Source: Synechococcus elongatus PCC 11801 (lineage in GTDB: Bacteria > Cyanobacteriota > Cyanobacteriia > Synechococcales > Synechococcaceae). From it: a stretch of 64,000 nt of DNA. Positions 2,840 through 51,159 of this stretch are shown here, piece after piece. How positions within the stretch are numbered: the first letter of the stretch is position 1; every line of letters starts with the position of its first letter. The DNA is taken from contig NZ_CP030139.2 in NCBI RefSeq assembly GCF_003846445.2, positions 868,001-932,000 on the forward strand, read 5' to 3'. The notes under the pieces are model-generated. The model was given only the letters and a program-made list of their open reading frames with translations, was not told the DNA's origin and did not search any database. The translations under genes were made by a program, and so were the position numbers.

Positions 2840-4333
2840 ATGAACCTGCGATCGCTGCTCGCTTCAACTCCGACCCAGGTCCTCCAACCGCAACATGCTG
2901 CCTTAGATTTAGCGATCACCGGTCTGCAGACCGACTCGCGCCGTTGCCAACCGGGGGATCTGTTCCTGGGGATGCCCGGCACCCAAGTGGATGGCGGCCA
3001 GTTTTGGCCAGAAGCGATCGCGGCTGGGGCGGTTGCTGCAATTGTCACCCCCACTGCTCTGGCGCAACGTCCGCTCTCTGCCAATCCAGATGCTTGCTTG
3101 ATCCTGAGTGATCAAATGCCGGTCACTGCTGGGGCGATCGCGGCAGCCTTCTACAACCAACCAGCCCAGGCCTTGAAGTTAGCAGGGGTGACGGGCACTA
3201 ACGGTAAAACCACCACGACCCATTTAATTGAGCACTTTCTCAACGCTGCAGACACAAAGACAGCGCTGTTAGGCACGCTCTATAACCGCTGGCCTGGCTA
3301 CTCCGAAGTGGCGCAACATACAACGCCCTTTGCTACTGATTTACATGCCCAACTAGCGACCGCCGTTGCAGCAGACTGCCAAGCTGCAGTCATGGAAGTC
3401 AGTTCCCACGCGTTGGATCAGGGTCGGGTTAATGGTTGCGGCTTTGATGTCGCCGTTTTCACGAACCTCACCCAAGACCACTTGGACTATCACCAAACGA
3501 TGGAGGCCTACTTTGCAGCCAAGGCAAGGTTGTTTGCGCCGCCCTATCTGCGCGGCAAAGCTATTATCAACGCCGATGATGCCTACGGTCAGCGCTTGAT
3601 CGCCATGACGCCGCCCGAGCAATGTCTCACCTACAGCGTTTCAGGCACGGCAGACTTTTGCACCACAGACTTGCAGTACGGGCCAACCGGCGTTGAAGGC
3701 ACCATCAAAACGCCAGAGGGGGCTTTCCCCTTCCGATCGCCTCTCGTCGGTCAATTCAACCTCGCCAATTTGTTGGGGGCGATCGCGGCGGGCTGGACAC
3801 TGGGCTTATCGATCGAGACGATGCTGGCTGCCGTCCCTGACTTTGCTGGTGTACCCGGTCGCATGGAACGGGTTGTGGGTCGGGAGACAGACCCGACGGT
3901 GATTGTCGACTATGCCCACACGCCCGACAGTCTTGAAAACCTATTGAAAGCGGCTCGTCCATTTATTCAGGGTGAGCTGATCTGCGTGTTTGGCTGTGGA
4001 GGCGATCGCGATCGCACCAAGCGGCCCCTGATGGGCGAAATTGCGGCACGGCTGGCCGATCGGGTGATTGTCACCTCTGATAACCCGCGCACCGAAGACC
4101 CGCGTCAGATTTTGGCGGATATTGTGGCGGGCATCCCGGCAGAAAGCCCGGTCGTCGTCGAAGCCGATCGCACGGTGGCCATTCGTCAGGCGATTCTCTC
4201 GGCTCAGCCTGGGGATGGTGTGCTCTTGGCAGGGAAAGGCCACGAGGACTATCAGATTCTTGGCACGACGAAAATCCACTTCGACGATCGCGAGCAGGCA
4301 CGGCTAGCTTTAGCCGAGCGTCAGTCTGCATGA
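2840..4333 (+). CDS. murE: UDP-N-acetylmuramoyl-tripeptide synthetase MurE
   Basis: Cytoplasmic Mur ligase that adds the third amino acid to UDP-MurNAc-L-Ala-D-Glu in peptidoglycan synthesis. ATP-binding loop GVTGTNGKTTTTH lies at about residue 116, and a HTPDSLENLL region is in the C-terminal half. The DNPR motif (TSDNPRTEDP, about residue 415) marks meso-diaminopimelate as the amino acid added. I chose the ATG at 2840 over the one at 2825 because GGAGGGA lies just upstream, giving 497 residues. The stop overlaps the HIT gene start in ATGA. Confidence 0.96.
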   Translation: MNLRSLLASTPTQVLQPQHAALDLAITGLQTDSRRCQPGDLFLGMPGTQVDGGQFWPEAIAAGAVAAIVTPTALAQRPLSANPDACLILSDQMPVTAGAIAAAFYNQPAQALKLAGVTGTNGKTTTTHLIEHFLNAADTKTALLGTLYNRWPGYSEVAQHTTPFATDLHAQLATAVAADCQAAVMEVSSHALDQGRVNGCGFDVAVFTNLTQDHLDYHQTMEAYFAAKARLFAPPYLRGKAIINADDAYGQRLIAMTPPEQCLTYSVSGTADFCTTDLQYGPTGVEGTIKTPEGAFPFRSPLVGQFNLANLLGAIAAGWTLGLSIETMLAAVPDFAGVPGRMERVVGRETDPTVIVDYAHTPDSLENLLKAARPFIQGELICVFGCGGDRDRTKRPLMGEIAARLADRVIVTSDNPRTEDPRQILADIVAGIPAESPVVVEADRTVAIRQAILSAQPGDGVLLAGKGHEDYQILGTTKIHFDDREQARLALAERQSA

Positions 4334-47489: not shown

Positions 47490-47820
47490 GTCCAGCGCGC
47501 AGTATTAAGGAACGGAATCGATCAATCCTGTGGGGGGAGAAGCACCTCGTAATGAGCACTACTTGTCCCCCTTTCCTCATCCTTGTTGTGCACTGACTGT
47601 GTGTGAGGGAAAGCTTATTCTTCTTTCTGGATCTCTGCCTCTGTGCAGGGAGAGGATGCTTGCATTTCCCTAAATGACCTGTCTGCACTGAGTCACTGTA
47701 GACAACAGGACTATACTCCTCAGCCCGCGATCGCGCCGTATTTAGTCATTCGCACTAATTCAAGCGCATTGCCTTGGGGACGAACCTAGCATCAGGGCGT
47801 TCTGGGTTCTGCTGGTGCTT
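47490..47820. other. Gene-free region after hemJ
   Basis: About 330 bases. I see pyrimidine-rich stretches and short hairpins but no gene, no clear terminator and no RNA gene that I can name. Confidence 0.4.
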
Positions 47821-48585
47821 ATGAAACCTCATCTCTCCCTAAAGTCACTACGGGGTCAAGTTCATCGCTTTACGGGTGTTGTCGATCGAGTCAGTCGGTT
47901 TTCTACTGCTGAAGGGTGGCAGGAGACGATTTGTATTCGGGACTTGCATTTGGCTGATAGCAATCGTCCTATTCAGCCCGATCACTGGTGGTTTAAGCTG
48001 CGGGACTGCTGGCTAGCAGCAGGAGTTCAATCGGGCGATCGCGTCTTGTTTACGGCGAAGGTTCAATACTGCACGAAGGGGTTGGATGGTCCGGAGGTGC
48101 AGAACAGCGATAACCCACGGCGAAAGGTGATTGGTTTTGGCAGTAAACCGCGCAGTGTGGTGATTCTGCAGCGTGCAACTCCGTCCATGCCGATCGAGCT
48201 GGAACTACAAACACAACTAGCGATCGTCGTGCACGAGTACGAACAGCTCCAGCAGCTTGTCACACAGAATGGGACCCTTGCTCAAAAACTCTCACAAACA
48301 CGGACTGAAGTTGAGCAAGGCCAGCAGGAGCTACGTCATCAAGAACAGGTCTGTACGCAACTCCGTTTTGCGCTCCGCCTTGCCCAGTACGGGTCACGTC
48401 CCGTTGTCACAGCCGGCACTGCGCTGGTGATTGGACTAGGGTCAGGTTTGGGTCTTGCTCGACTGGCTCCAAATGCAACTCAAGCGCAACAGCCACAGAG
48501 CGCGGATCAGGTTTGCACCCTCGAAGAGCGGAATCGACGATCGCAAGTCAGTTCTCAGGAGTGGCTAGCGTGGCAAAGACGCTAG
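47821..48585 (+). CDS. Hypothetical protein with beta domain, coiled coil and membrane segment
   Basis: A 254-residue protein of no recognised family. The first 110 residues look like a beta-rich, possibly OB-like domain (GQVHRFTGVVDRVSRF, GDRVLFTAKVQYC). A Gln/Glu-rich coiled coil at about 125-190 follows (LELQTQLAIVVHEYEQLQQL), then a Gly-rich hydrophobic segment (VTAGTALVIGLGSGLGLA) and a short Gln-rich tail. The layout suggests a membrane-tethered binding protein (inference). Confidence 0.68.
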   Translation: MKPHLSLKSLRGQVHRFTGVVDRVSRFSTAEGWQETICIRDLHLADSNRPIQPDHWWFKLRDCWLAAGVQSGDRVLFTAKVQYCTKGLDGPEVQNSDNPRRKVIGFGSKPRSVVILQRATPSMPIELELQTQLAIVVHEYEQLQQLVTQNGTLAQKLSQTRTEVEQGQQELRHQEQVCTQLRFALRLAQYGSRPVVTAGTALVIGLGSGLGLARLAPNATQAQQPQSADQVCTLEERNRRSQVSSQEWLAWQRR

Positions 48586-48656
48586 GTGAGCACTATCACG
48601 ATGGCCTCAGTAGTTACGAGCAATCCCCCCAATGCCATGTTGATCTGAGTCGCTGC

Positions 48657-48833
48657 TTAACGGTGACGGACTTTCCAAGTACCGCCATAACGGTAGTGAG
48701 GGTTCCCCTGACTCAGATGAGCTTGGCAATCGGGACAAACCAGCTGCCACGGCCCTTGTGCTTCGCTTTGAATTCGATAGCGGATGGCAACTACGGCCTG
48801 GCAGCGATCGCAGGGTTGAGGATCGCGAGCCAT
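48657..48833 (-). CDS. 58-residue zinc-ribbon protein downstream of raf1
   Basis: A short gene on the minus strand: ATG at 48833, stop at 48657. The product has two Cys pairs, PCDRCQAVV and LVCPDCQAHL, spaced about 22 residues apart as in a zinc ribbon, and a basic end (YRYGGTWKVRHR). Its ATG directly abuts the raf1 stop, so translation is surely coupled. The knuckles and tight spacing make it credible; function is unknown. Confidence 0.78.
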   Translation of the reverse strand: MARDPQPCDRCQAVVAIRYRIQSEAQGPWQLVCPDCQAHLSQGNPHYRYGGTWKVRHR

Positions 48834-49904
48834 TTACTCTTCGAACTGCCAAGGGGTGGCGATCGCTGCTTCGTCGAGCACCCGCTTCGGACGCAAAATC
48901 AGGACCAATCGTCCCAGAATGGGAGCGGCGATCGCCTCAGGCGACCACTGAACCCGAGCCCCTTCTGCTTGTTCAACCAAGAAAAAGTGCTCGGCGTCCC
49001 AAGTGCGATCAGCACGATCGATCACCAAGATCACCGTCTCTGTTGGCCCTTCCGGTGCATTGGGCAGACGATCAATCTCTTCCAAGCAAGCGATTGGATC
49101 TTGAGCACCCAAAACCGCTTGCCAGCCGGGCAAGGCCAGCCACTGTTGTCCAGCAGGACTAGTGACCAAACCAAAGGGGCCTTCTGCTTCGATCGCCGCG
49201 ATCGCCTCAATTTGAGGACTGGGAAGCGGCAAGTGACCGGCGAAAGGCAACAAGCGGGGCAAATCCTCTTCCGTTTCTAGCCGATAGAGCGGCAGCATCG
49301 GCGGTTTGCGACTGGGGACGCCGCTGAGATCCATCAGCAAGGTCTCGATTTGGGCGCGGGCCCCAGCCGACTGAGCAAATTGCAACCCCCGCGCAATCAA
49401 CCGCGATCGCTCGGTCAGATCCGTTCGCTCTTGGGCAAGCCGCCAGCATTGATAGGCAACCGCATCCCCCGGATGGCGGTCAAAGTGATCAGGCTGCTTG
49501 GGCAATCGACAAAAATCCTTCGTCGCTTTGGCAACCTCACGGATTTGATCCGCATCCAAATTGCGTTCGAGGGCAAGTTGTGCGGTGAGCGATCGCTGCT
49601 CTTGGTCGAGTTCGCGCAGCTCATAAAGGAGATCACTGCCGCGTTCTTGGTATGTTTCGCGGACATGGGCAGGAGGGTCTTGCCGCAGGATCGAGTCATA
49701 AACCTGCATCGCCACCGTAATTTGATTCTGCTGAATCGGCTCAAAGCCTGTGGCTTCAAACAGCGCCTGCGGACTCAGGCCACTTTTTAAGAGCGTTTGA
49801 CAAGCCCTCGCCCAAGCTAGCCAGCGACCTTCCTTGCGGCGCAGTTGTCCCAATAACTCCTGCTGCTCTTCGTCGCTGAGGGTAGTTGGAGTGAACTCAG
49901 TCAT
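48834..49904 (-). CDS. raf1: RuBisCO accumulation factor 1 (Raf1)
   Basis: Assembly chaperone that dimerises RbcL subunits before RbcS joins. It is 356 residues, the family length. The helical N-domain (LLGQLRRKEGRWLAWARACQ, LSPQALFEATGFEPIQQNQ) carries RGSDLLYELRELDQEQR. The beta-rich C-domain follows (PLYRLETEEDLPRLLPFAG). It lies downstream of psbA on the same strand, separated by a strong terminator and about 170 bases. Confidence 0.95.
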   Translation of the reverse strand: MTEFTPTTLSDEEQQELLGQLRRKEGRWLAWARACQTLLKSGLSPQALFEATGFEPIQQNQITVAMQVYDSILRQDPPAHVRETYQERGSDLLYELRELDQEQRSLTAQLALERNLDADQIREVAKATKDFCRLPKQPDHFDRHPGDAVAYQCWRLAQERTDLTERSRLIARGLQFAQSAGARAQIETLLMDLSGVPSRKPPMLPLYRLETEEDLPRLLPFAGHLPLPSPQIEAIAAIEAEGPFGLVTSPAGQQWLALPGWQAVLGAQDPIACLEEIDRLPNAPEGPTETVILVIDRADRTWDAEHFFLVEQAEGARVQWSPEAIAAPILGRLVLILRPKRVLDEAAIATPWQFEE

Positions 49905-50000
49905 AGCCAGAACAGAGGAATGTAAATGGGCCAGATCTCAGCATAAACAACGACTTCAACCTGCGATCGCGCAGCCATCAAAGCAATCTTGCCAAAAGCG

Positions 50001-50027
50001 AGAGGGCTCTGGATTCCAGAGCCCTCT
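50001..50027 (-). terminator. psbA terminator
   Basis: AGAGGGCTCTGG (50001-50012) pairs perfectly with CCAGAGCCCTCT (50016-50027) across a 3-base loop. On the minus strand it is followed by CGCTTTTGGC. It lies 50 bases past the psbA stop. Confidence 0.85.
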
Positions 50028-50076
50028 CACAACTACTCAACTATTCAATTGAGCAATGACTTTGCATCAGCGGGAA

Positions 50077-51159
50077 TTAGCCGTTGATAGCAGGAGCGGT
50101 CAGAGCAACGGGGGTTGCTTCGCCAGCAGCCAAGTCGAGGGGGAAGTTGTGAGCATTGCGCTCGTGCATCACTTCCATACCCAGGTTGGCGCGGTTCAGC
50201 ACGTCTGCCCAGGTGTTCACCACACGACCTTGGCTATCCAAGATCGACTGGTTGAAGTTGAAACCGTTCAGGTTGAACGCCATGGTGCTGATGCCCAAGG
50301 ACGTGAACCAGATGCCCACTACCGGCCATGCAGCCAGGAAGAAGTGCAGCGAACGGCTGTTGTTGAACGAAGCGTATTGGAAGATCAAGCGACCGAAGTA
50401 ACCGTGGGCTGCCACGATGTTGTAGGTCTCTTCTTCTTGACCAAATTTGTAGCCGTAGTTTTGGCTCTCAGCTTCGGTCGTCTCACGCACCAGCGAGCTG
50501 GTCACGAGCGAACCGTGCATTGCCGAGAACAGCGAACCACCGAACACGCCAGCAACGCCGAGCATGTGGAAGGGGTGCATCAAAATGTTGTGCTCAGCTT
50601 GGAACACGAACATGAAGTTGAAGGTGCCGCTGATACCCAAAGGCATGCCGTCCGAGAACGAACCTTGGCCGATCGGGTAGATCAGGAACACTGCAGTCGC
50701 TGCTGCAACCGGTGCGCTGTATGCAACACAGATCCAGGGACGCATACCGAGGCGGTACGACAGTTCCCACTCACGGCCCATGTAGCAGAAGACGCCGATC
50801 AGGAAGTGGAACACTACCAATTGGTAGGGGCCACCGTTGTAGAGCCACTCGTCGAGGCTAGCGGCTTCCCAGATCGGGTAGAAGTGCAAACCAATTGCGT
50901 TGCTGGAAGGAACAACAGCACCAGAGATGATGTTGTTGCCATACATCAACGAACCAGCAACAGGCTCGCGGATGCCGTCGATGTCGACGGGAGGTGCTGC
51001 GATGAACGCAACGATGAAGCAGATGGTGGCGGTCAGCAGGGTGGGGATCATCAACACGCCGAACCAGCCCACATAGAGGCGGTTGTCGGTGCTGGTCACC
51101 CACTCGCAGAACTGCTGCCACAGGCTGGCGCTCTCGCGCCGCTGCAATGCAGTCGTCAT
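50077..51159 (-). CDS. psbA: Photosystem II D1 protein, form II (D1:2)
   Basis: Reaction-centre subunit binding P680, the manganese cluster and QB. It is 360 residues with five membrane helices. Tyr161-region, His198-region and QB-pocket sequences are standard. Residue 130 is Glu (CYMGREWEL), the marker of the high-light form; form I has Gln there. The N-terminus [16 protein letters not shown] also fits form II. A C-terminal extension after the processed Ala344 is present. Form II genes in this genus are induced by high light. Confidence 0.97.

Follow-up and report, generated by a model that had tools for sequence, protein, structure and literature searches.

The window, that is, the whole 64,000-nt stretch of Synechococcus elongatus PCC 11801 DNA analyzed in this study, carries a short gene directly behind raf1 (Table 1). 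The initial annotation had placed an unlisted 58-codon gene at exactly these coordinates, leaving its strand unstated, and had described two CxxC knuckles, a basic tail and an ATG abutting the raf1 stop. All of these were found: the knuckles are C8-D-R-C11 and C33-P-D-C36, the tail is KVRHR, and the raf1 TAA (48836-48834) is followed by the ATG with a gap of 0 nt. The identity of the neighbor was likewise confirmed by three Pfam Raf1 domains. The 58-aa product, translated from 48833 to 48657 on the minus strand and followed by TAA, is MARDPQPCDRCQAVVAIRYRIQSEAQGPWQLVCPDCQAHLSQGNPHYRYGGTWKVRHR, and its layout is MARDPQPCDRCQ...CPDCQ...YRYGGTWKVRHR.

Table 1 Features of the raf1 and small-gene locus, numbered by position in the window
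Feature	Position	Strand	Description	Basis
Small zinc-finger gene	48657..48833	minus	58 codons plus TAA; ATG 48833-48831	Sequence, ORF list, relatives, dN/dS
First zinc knuckle	48801..48812	minus	CDRC, C8-C11	Sequence; Cys conservation
Second zinc knuckle	48726..48737	minus	CPDC, C33-C36, at the start of a predicted helix	Sequence; model
YGGTWK family signature	48672..48689	minus	Residues 49-54, within the final predicted strand and ahead of the basic tail	Sequence; conservation 0.92-0.99 per column in 166 copies
raf1	48834..49904	minus	Rubisco accumulation factor 1, 356 aa	Pfam Raf1_HTH, Raf1_N and RuBisCo_chap_C, each over its cut-off
Two-gene unit, raf1 and small gene	48657..49914	minus		blastn, 78% identity over 1260 columns, E limit 1e-10

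The next gene ahead of raf1, also on the minus strand and 172 nt away (50077-51159), is one that we take to be psbA, encoding the D1 protein of photosystem II; blastn found no counterpart of this block in a 14 kb locus from another species of the genus. A convergent 256-aa ORF beside the small gene (47815-48585, plus strand) matched nothing in Pfam at E 0.01, and its DNA had no match in the same 14 kb locus. The 255-aa antisense ORF at 48513-49280 (plus strand) is a mechanical reading over the small gene and part of raf1. An RNA element at the junction of the two genes was also sought and rejected: there was no Rfam match at gathering score between 45000 and 52500, no sigma-70-like promoter within 48000-50200, and the four terminator-like sites in the latter interval (2.7 expected) lent no support either.

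The small gene is almost certainly a real and conserved zinc-finger gene. Compared with the copy from another species of the genus (74% identity, no indel), pN was 0.13 against a pS of 0.65, and the Nei-Gojobori estimates of dN 0.143 and dS 1.48, the latter rough because it is near saturation, gave a dN/dS of about 0.10. The differences at codon positions 1, 2 and 3 numbered 8, 7 and 28. When the same alignment was read in antisense, pN exceeded pS in frames 0 and 2; frame 1 had a pS of 0.47 and a pN of 0.16 but was interrupted by 9 and 6 stops. A chance ORF was rejected on the conservation and the dN/dS. The initial annotation had named an unconserved frame or neutral substitution as grounds for discarding the gene; conservation and purifying-type ratios were found instead, and its view of a genuine gene that is easily missed was upheld.

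Relatives of the small protein are widespread. A single-sequence search found them encoded in 20 of 59 genomes, and an 18-row profile search in at least 161 of 388 genomes of the class (at least 139 of the 334 of good quality), the genome of the window being counted in both searches. The family also reaches Planctomycetota and Pseudomonadota, with relatives in at least 2 of 199 genomes from the phylum of a Rubripirellula genome, itself one of the two, and at least 4 of 299 from the phylum of a Lysobacterales MAG, which counts among the four; another of these four was weak and had an internal stop. These three totals are lower bounds, because the candidates of many genomes were scored in part (up to 16, 31 and 21 per genome in the three surveys). 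The loci survey kept the best 80 of 336 relatives. For the alignments, the 18-row set was the 20 loci minus L018 and L020, and the larger set comprised 77 sequences after removal of L038, L046 and one identical copy, or 76 plus the window protein after removal of L096.

Of 166 aligned copies, 163 retain all four cysteines. The other three, L018, L020 and L038, are single copies without one or more of the zinc ligands and are possibly decaying or misassembled. Conservation of R20, W29, Y47 and the YGGTWK motif is close to that of the cysteines (0.92 to 1.0 over the 166 copies), and the family signature is CxxC ... W..vC..C ... NP.YrYGGTWKarkr. The proteins are strongly basic, with a median pI of 9.6 and a net charge of +7 among the 164 copies of 80 aa or less, and a median net charge of +4 from the signature lysine to the C-terminal end in the 151 copies that showed the motif; the window protein itself has a pI of 9.2 and a net charge of +4. 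The four near-invariant cysteines would suit a metal-handling or redox-sensing zinc protein with no nucleic-acid or partner role, but a mere metal store would not need R20, W29, Y47 and YGGTWK to be kept about like the cysteines, and this reading is regarded as highly improbable.

An origin as a phage or plasmid gene was considered and rejected, since neither the 50,697 phage records nor the 72,556 plasmid records searched by tblastn with the L022 relative gave a match. One contig of a viral collection (L101, 10.4 kb) does carry a relative at 3873-4052, its ATG placed immediately after the TAG of a gene for a 345-aa protein that Pfam does not match; the contig also encodes what appear to us to be recombinase-like proteins. 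Two further loci, L102 and L103, showed a 17-residue match only, and in PHROGs the window protein weakly matched a family of unknown function (E 0.00065).

The initial annotation had called the product a zinc ribbon, which is probably the wrong name for its fold. In a treble clef, a knuckle and a beta hairpin are followed by a helix whose start holds the second ligand pair, whereas both knuckles of a classical zinc ribbon sit at beta-hairpin turns, with no helix at the second one. The AlphaFold2 model (77 sequences; pLDDT 84.8, pTM 0.64), which is built without zinc, places strands 17-22 and 30-32 after C8/C11, lets helix 34-41 begin at C33/C36, and ends in strand 48-54 with the YGGTWK signature. 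The predicted order is that of a treble clef, and the helix at the second knuckle departs from the classical zinc ribbon. The small protein would bind zinc, and it is probably a one-zinc treble clef of an unnamed family.

No Pfam or NCBIfam family could be assigned. The window protein reached no Pfam model at its cut-off; its best match was DUF7573 (PF24458) at residues 4-37, with 22.9 bits against a cut-off of 30.2 (E 8.2e-5), and this 39-position profile stops short of the YGGTWK part. Among 18 members of the family, the cut-offs being compared for the first only, no E-value was better than that of the window protein, the other 17 giving 0.0013 at best or DUF7573 matches; DUF7573 was found in five of the 18 at E 0.1, and ZZ (1), CEBP_ZZ (3) and B-box (2) matched weakly. 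In NCBIfam, the window protein matched four families at E up to 1, none at the cut-off, and none of 77 members had a match at E 0.01. The family is thus one that matched no NCBIfam model and, judged by the window protein, reached no Pfam cut-off. The best PDB sequence match was the RPB9 zinc ribbon (E 0.15, not significant), which shares the CxxC...CxxC spacing and differs in that the small protein has a predicted helix at its second knuckle. The DnaJ-type zinc finger of BSD2, a Rubisco assembly helper of plants with CxxCxGxG repeats, is similar in being a small zinc protein near a Rubisco-assembly theme; no such repeats occur in the 58 residues.

The top-ranked Foldseek matches were mostly ZZ domains, all weak (E 0.31 or worse), and VIA-align placed ZZ and B-box first, with RING and LIM also present, again weakly (Z at most 4.5). 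Domains of these four types bind proteins or peptides. Like the ZZ domains of p62/SQSTM1 and CBP/p300, the small protein is predicted to have a hairpin and a helix around a zinc site within about 50 residues. The ZZ domains matched are eukaryotic, however, the window protein has no match to ZZ (PF00569) at E 1 or better, and a ZZ domain has two zinc sites, whereas the four conserved cysteines of the family allow one. The main rival to the interpretation developed below is that of a ZZ-like adaptor, which would bind proteins or peptides in quality control, as an enzyme partner or as a regulator, and would not bind nucleic acids. Besides the Foldseek and VIA-align rankings and the few ZZ, CEBP_ZZ and B-box matches in Pfam, it could draw on a fusion behind DUF924 in marine picocyanobacteria (L019 and L220); against it stand the weakness of every fold match, the single possible zinc site and the strongly basic character of the protein. 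It is considered rather unlikely, if still a serious competitor.

The initial annotation had coupled the small gene to raf1, and within the genus this held. By blastn at E 1e-10, the 64 kb window had a single block in common with the 14 kb stretch from the other species (L142), namely 48657-49914 at 78% identity. As this block consists of raf1 and the small gene, the two form a true two-gene unit in the genus, and they stayed together while the gene order on both sides changed. The raf1 frame of L142 (6693-7778) has one extra base near its 3' end compared with the window, either a sequencing error or a real change, so that its last codons differ and it ends 7 nt before the small gene; the former junction, with TAG directly before ATG, is still visible. 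In this genus, the small gene is probably co-transcribed with raf1, and the stop abutting the start would probably couple its translation to that of raf1.

Outside the genus the coupling was not found. Among 167 distinct loci, two have raf1 as a neighbor of the small gene, and both are from this genus; in two further genomes raf1 lies farther off on the opposite strand, at 2.9 kb in the filamentous cyanobacterium CCP2 (locus L088, with L143 on the same contig, judged by length) and at 10.9 kb in L144. A Gloeomargaritaceae copy that joins the two raf1-linked copies in the family tree (98/86) is not beside raf1; it sits between two genes which, judged from their sequences, are presumably asd-like and ispF-like. 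Occurrence is uncoupled as well. When genomes with no match to the Raf1 C-terminal domain were taken as Raf1-less (80 in all), the small gene was present in 12 of the 20 listed (G025, G054, G077, G089, G113, G125, G131, G138, G145, G152, G159 and G166). Conversely, a Raf1 match in 308 and the small gene in 161 of the 388 class genomes imply that the small gene was not found in at least 147 Raf1-bearing genomes, a figure that may be lower in truth as the small-gene survey undercounts. The raf1 pairing is thus very probably specific to the genus and not the function of the family.

The published genetics of raf1 bear on the same point. In PCC 7942, raf1 (synpcc7942_0833) has been replaced with a resistance cassette; according to the main text of that study, plasmid-borne raf1 alone restored carboxysome formation in the deletion strain, and the degree of rescue appeared to depend on the Raf1 content (PMC7382273). 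As far as this text goes, the small gene is unnecessary to explain the carboxysome phenotype; the effect of the cassette on small-gene expression is not stated there, and the words polar, operon and cotranscri are absent from it. In the open-access papers searched, the raf1 tag Synpcc7942_0833 occurs in one, the tags Synpcc7942_0832 and _0834 in none, and YGGTWK was not found; among the titles and abstract beginnings listed by broader open-access searches, nothing concerned the small gene.

These results also weigh on the suggestion in the initial annotation of a link to carbon-fixation gene control or assembly. A Rubisco or carboxysome factor coupled to Raf1 could be argued for from the abutting stop and start, the same junction in the other species, and the pair being the sole block common to both loci. 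Yet raf1 adjoins 2 of the 167 loci, the sister copy in Gloeomargaritaceae lies elsewhere, the small gene and Raf1 occur apart, relatives are present in Planctomycetota and Pseudomonadota, and raf1 alone restores carboxysomes in the text cited above (PMC7382273). Such a factor is considered very unlikely. The survival of the pair through rearrangement leaves room for a functional link to raf1 at the level of the genus; beyond this operon, the carbon-fixation link is not supported, and the small gene is a real, ordinary-looking gene for a conserved small protein. In practice, deleting raf1 in S. elongatus may also affect the conserved gene that lies downstream of it.

The neighborhoods of the family were compared across the 167 distinct loci, which derive from 230 with a profile match among 232 fetched; the loci of the 161 class genomes are represented in part, by 30 matches that came as loci and 80 that were fetched. 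Neighbors were counted with our own ORF caller and tblastn (E 1e-8) on flanks that varied greatly in length. In 95 of the 167 loci (166 with an upstream ORF), the distance to a same-strand gene upstream is at most 60 nt, with an overlap of 1 or 4 nt in 16 of them; a same-strand gene follows within 60 nt downstream in 25 of 163, and an opposite-strand gene comes next downstream in 85. The small gene is therefore typically the last gene behind another, and this is the commonest layout of the family. The most frequent upstream partner, in 58 of 167 loci, is a PIN-domain protein, identified by Pfam on one representative and presumably of the PIN-TRAM type; it was counted up to 151 nt away, and two distant matches (L041 and L100) were left out. 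A DUF2805 protein is the upstream partner in 12 of 167 loci by tblastn, or in nine by ORF clustering alone. In addition, gatB lies 284-453 nt upstream in 5 of the 167, the glycyl-tRNA synthetase beta subunit and a class II D/K/N tRNA synthetase are partners in single loci, and a thylakoid-formation protein, a phycobilisome protein, ExoD, COQ7 and more precede the gene in one or two loci each. With relatives standing behind so many different genes, the product is probably a small protein of general use, perhaps one that binds RNA, rather than a factor in carbon fixation.

DUF2805 was found directly upstream in Pirellulaceae (L067, L075, L079 and L082) and in Nodosilinea-type cyanobacteria (L050, L057, L062, L073, L076, L203, L213 and L218). 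On the family tree the pairing needs two label changes, so that most simply it was apparently gained twice, once in the Nodosilinea-type cyanobacteria and once in the Pirellulaceae (Planctomycetota); this tree comprises 165 rows and 61 columns, leaves 62 of its 162 inner branches open and includes 94 rows that belong to no labelled group, and its bootstrap had not settled. In the tree of DUF2805 itself each paired group is a clade, the separateness of the two not being resolved. A functional link by co-occurrence was rejected: 9 of the 20 genomes with the family and 9 of the 39 without it had DUF2805, a difference short of significance (one-sided Fisher p 0.077). The PIN-domain protein is present in 57 of 59 relatives, with or without the small gene, and lies about 474 kb away in this genome, where DUF2805 was not found. 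Neither is therefore an obligatory partner. As partners change while its own sequence is kept, the small protein would have a function of its own and be expressed from whichever operon it has joined.

As to what that function is, a role in RNA metabolism or translation is proposed tentatively, at somewhat less than an even chance, because of the basic tail, the PIN-domain and DUF2805 partners, and the position of DUF2805 beside translation domains, in passages of a study of marine metagenomes whose correlation network has it in a spoke linked to translation (PMC3597751). The hairpin, the YGGTWK strand and the basic tail would bind RNA or a ribonucleoprotein, and the protein would act in RNA turnover or translation. 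Several observations count against this: no RNA-binding family matches the sequence, the structure matches are weak and mostly to protein- or peptide-binding domains, the PIN-domain protein is near-universal and distant here, and DUF2805 is missing from the matches in this genome and its co-occurrence with the family is not significant. The open-access literature gave nothing for PIN TRAM together with cyanobacteria. A small basic zinc finger might also be a DNA-binding or RNA-polymerase-associated regulator of gene expression, as the RPB9 match and the metal-sensitive repressor family protein encoded upstream in one locus (L026) could suggest; that match is far from significance, though, the partners differ between genomes, and a regulator of this kind is judged unlikely.

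Taken as a whole, the reading that we prefer, with reservations and somewhat short of an even chance, is that of a basic single-domain zinc protein with a role in RNA metabolism or translation, whose gene is placed opportunistically at operon ends and whose pairing with raf1 would provide expression and no shared function. A bolder version, to which we give little credence, holds that the YGGTWK proteins are a widespread RNA-binding module and a swappable partner of RNA-acting proteins (mostly the PIN-domain, probably PIN-TRAM, nuclease; apparently twice DUF2805; the DUF924 fusion), which the raf1 operon captured in the genus of S. elongatus, thereby fixing the ratio in which Rubisco assembly capacity and an RNA function would be made. 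If the RNA role is true, it would give a function to a family present in about two fifths of the sampled class genomes (161/388). The small gene now has a family with a clear signature and a large neighbor map. The in-frame fusion seen in marine picocyanobacteria, with a Pfam DUF924 domain ahead of the zinc finger (L019, 931-1722; L220, 2486-3265), offers a lead on both unknown families.
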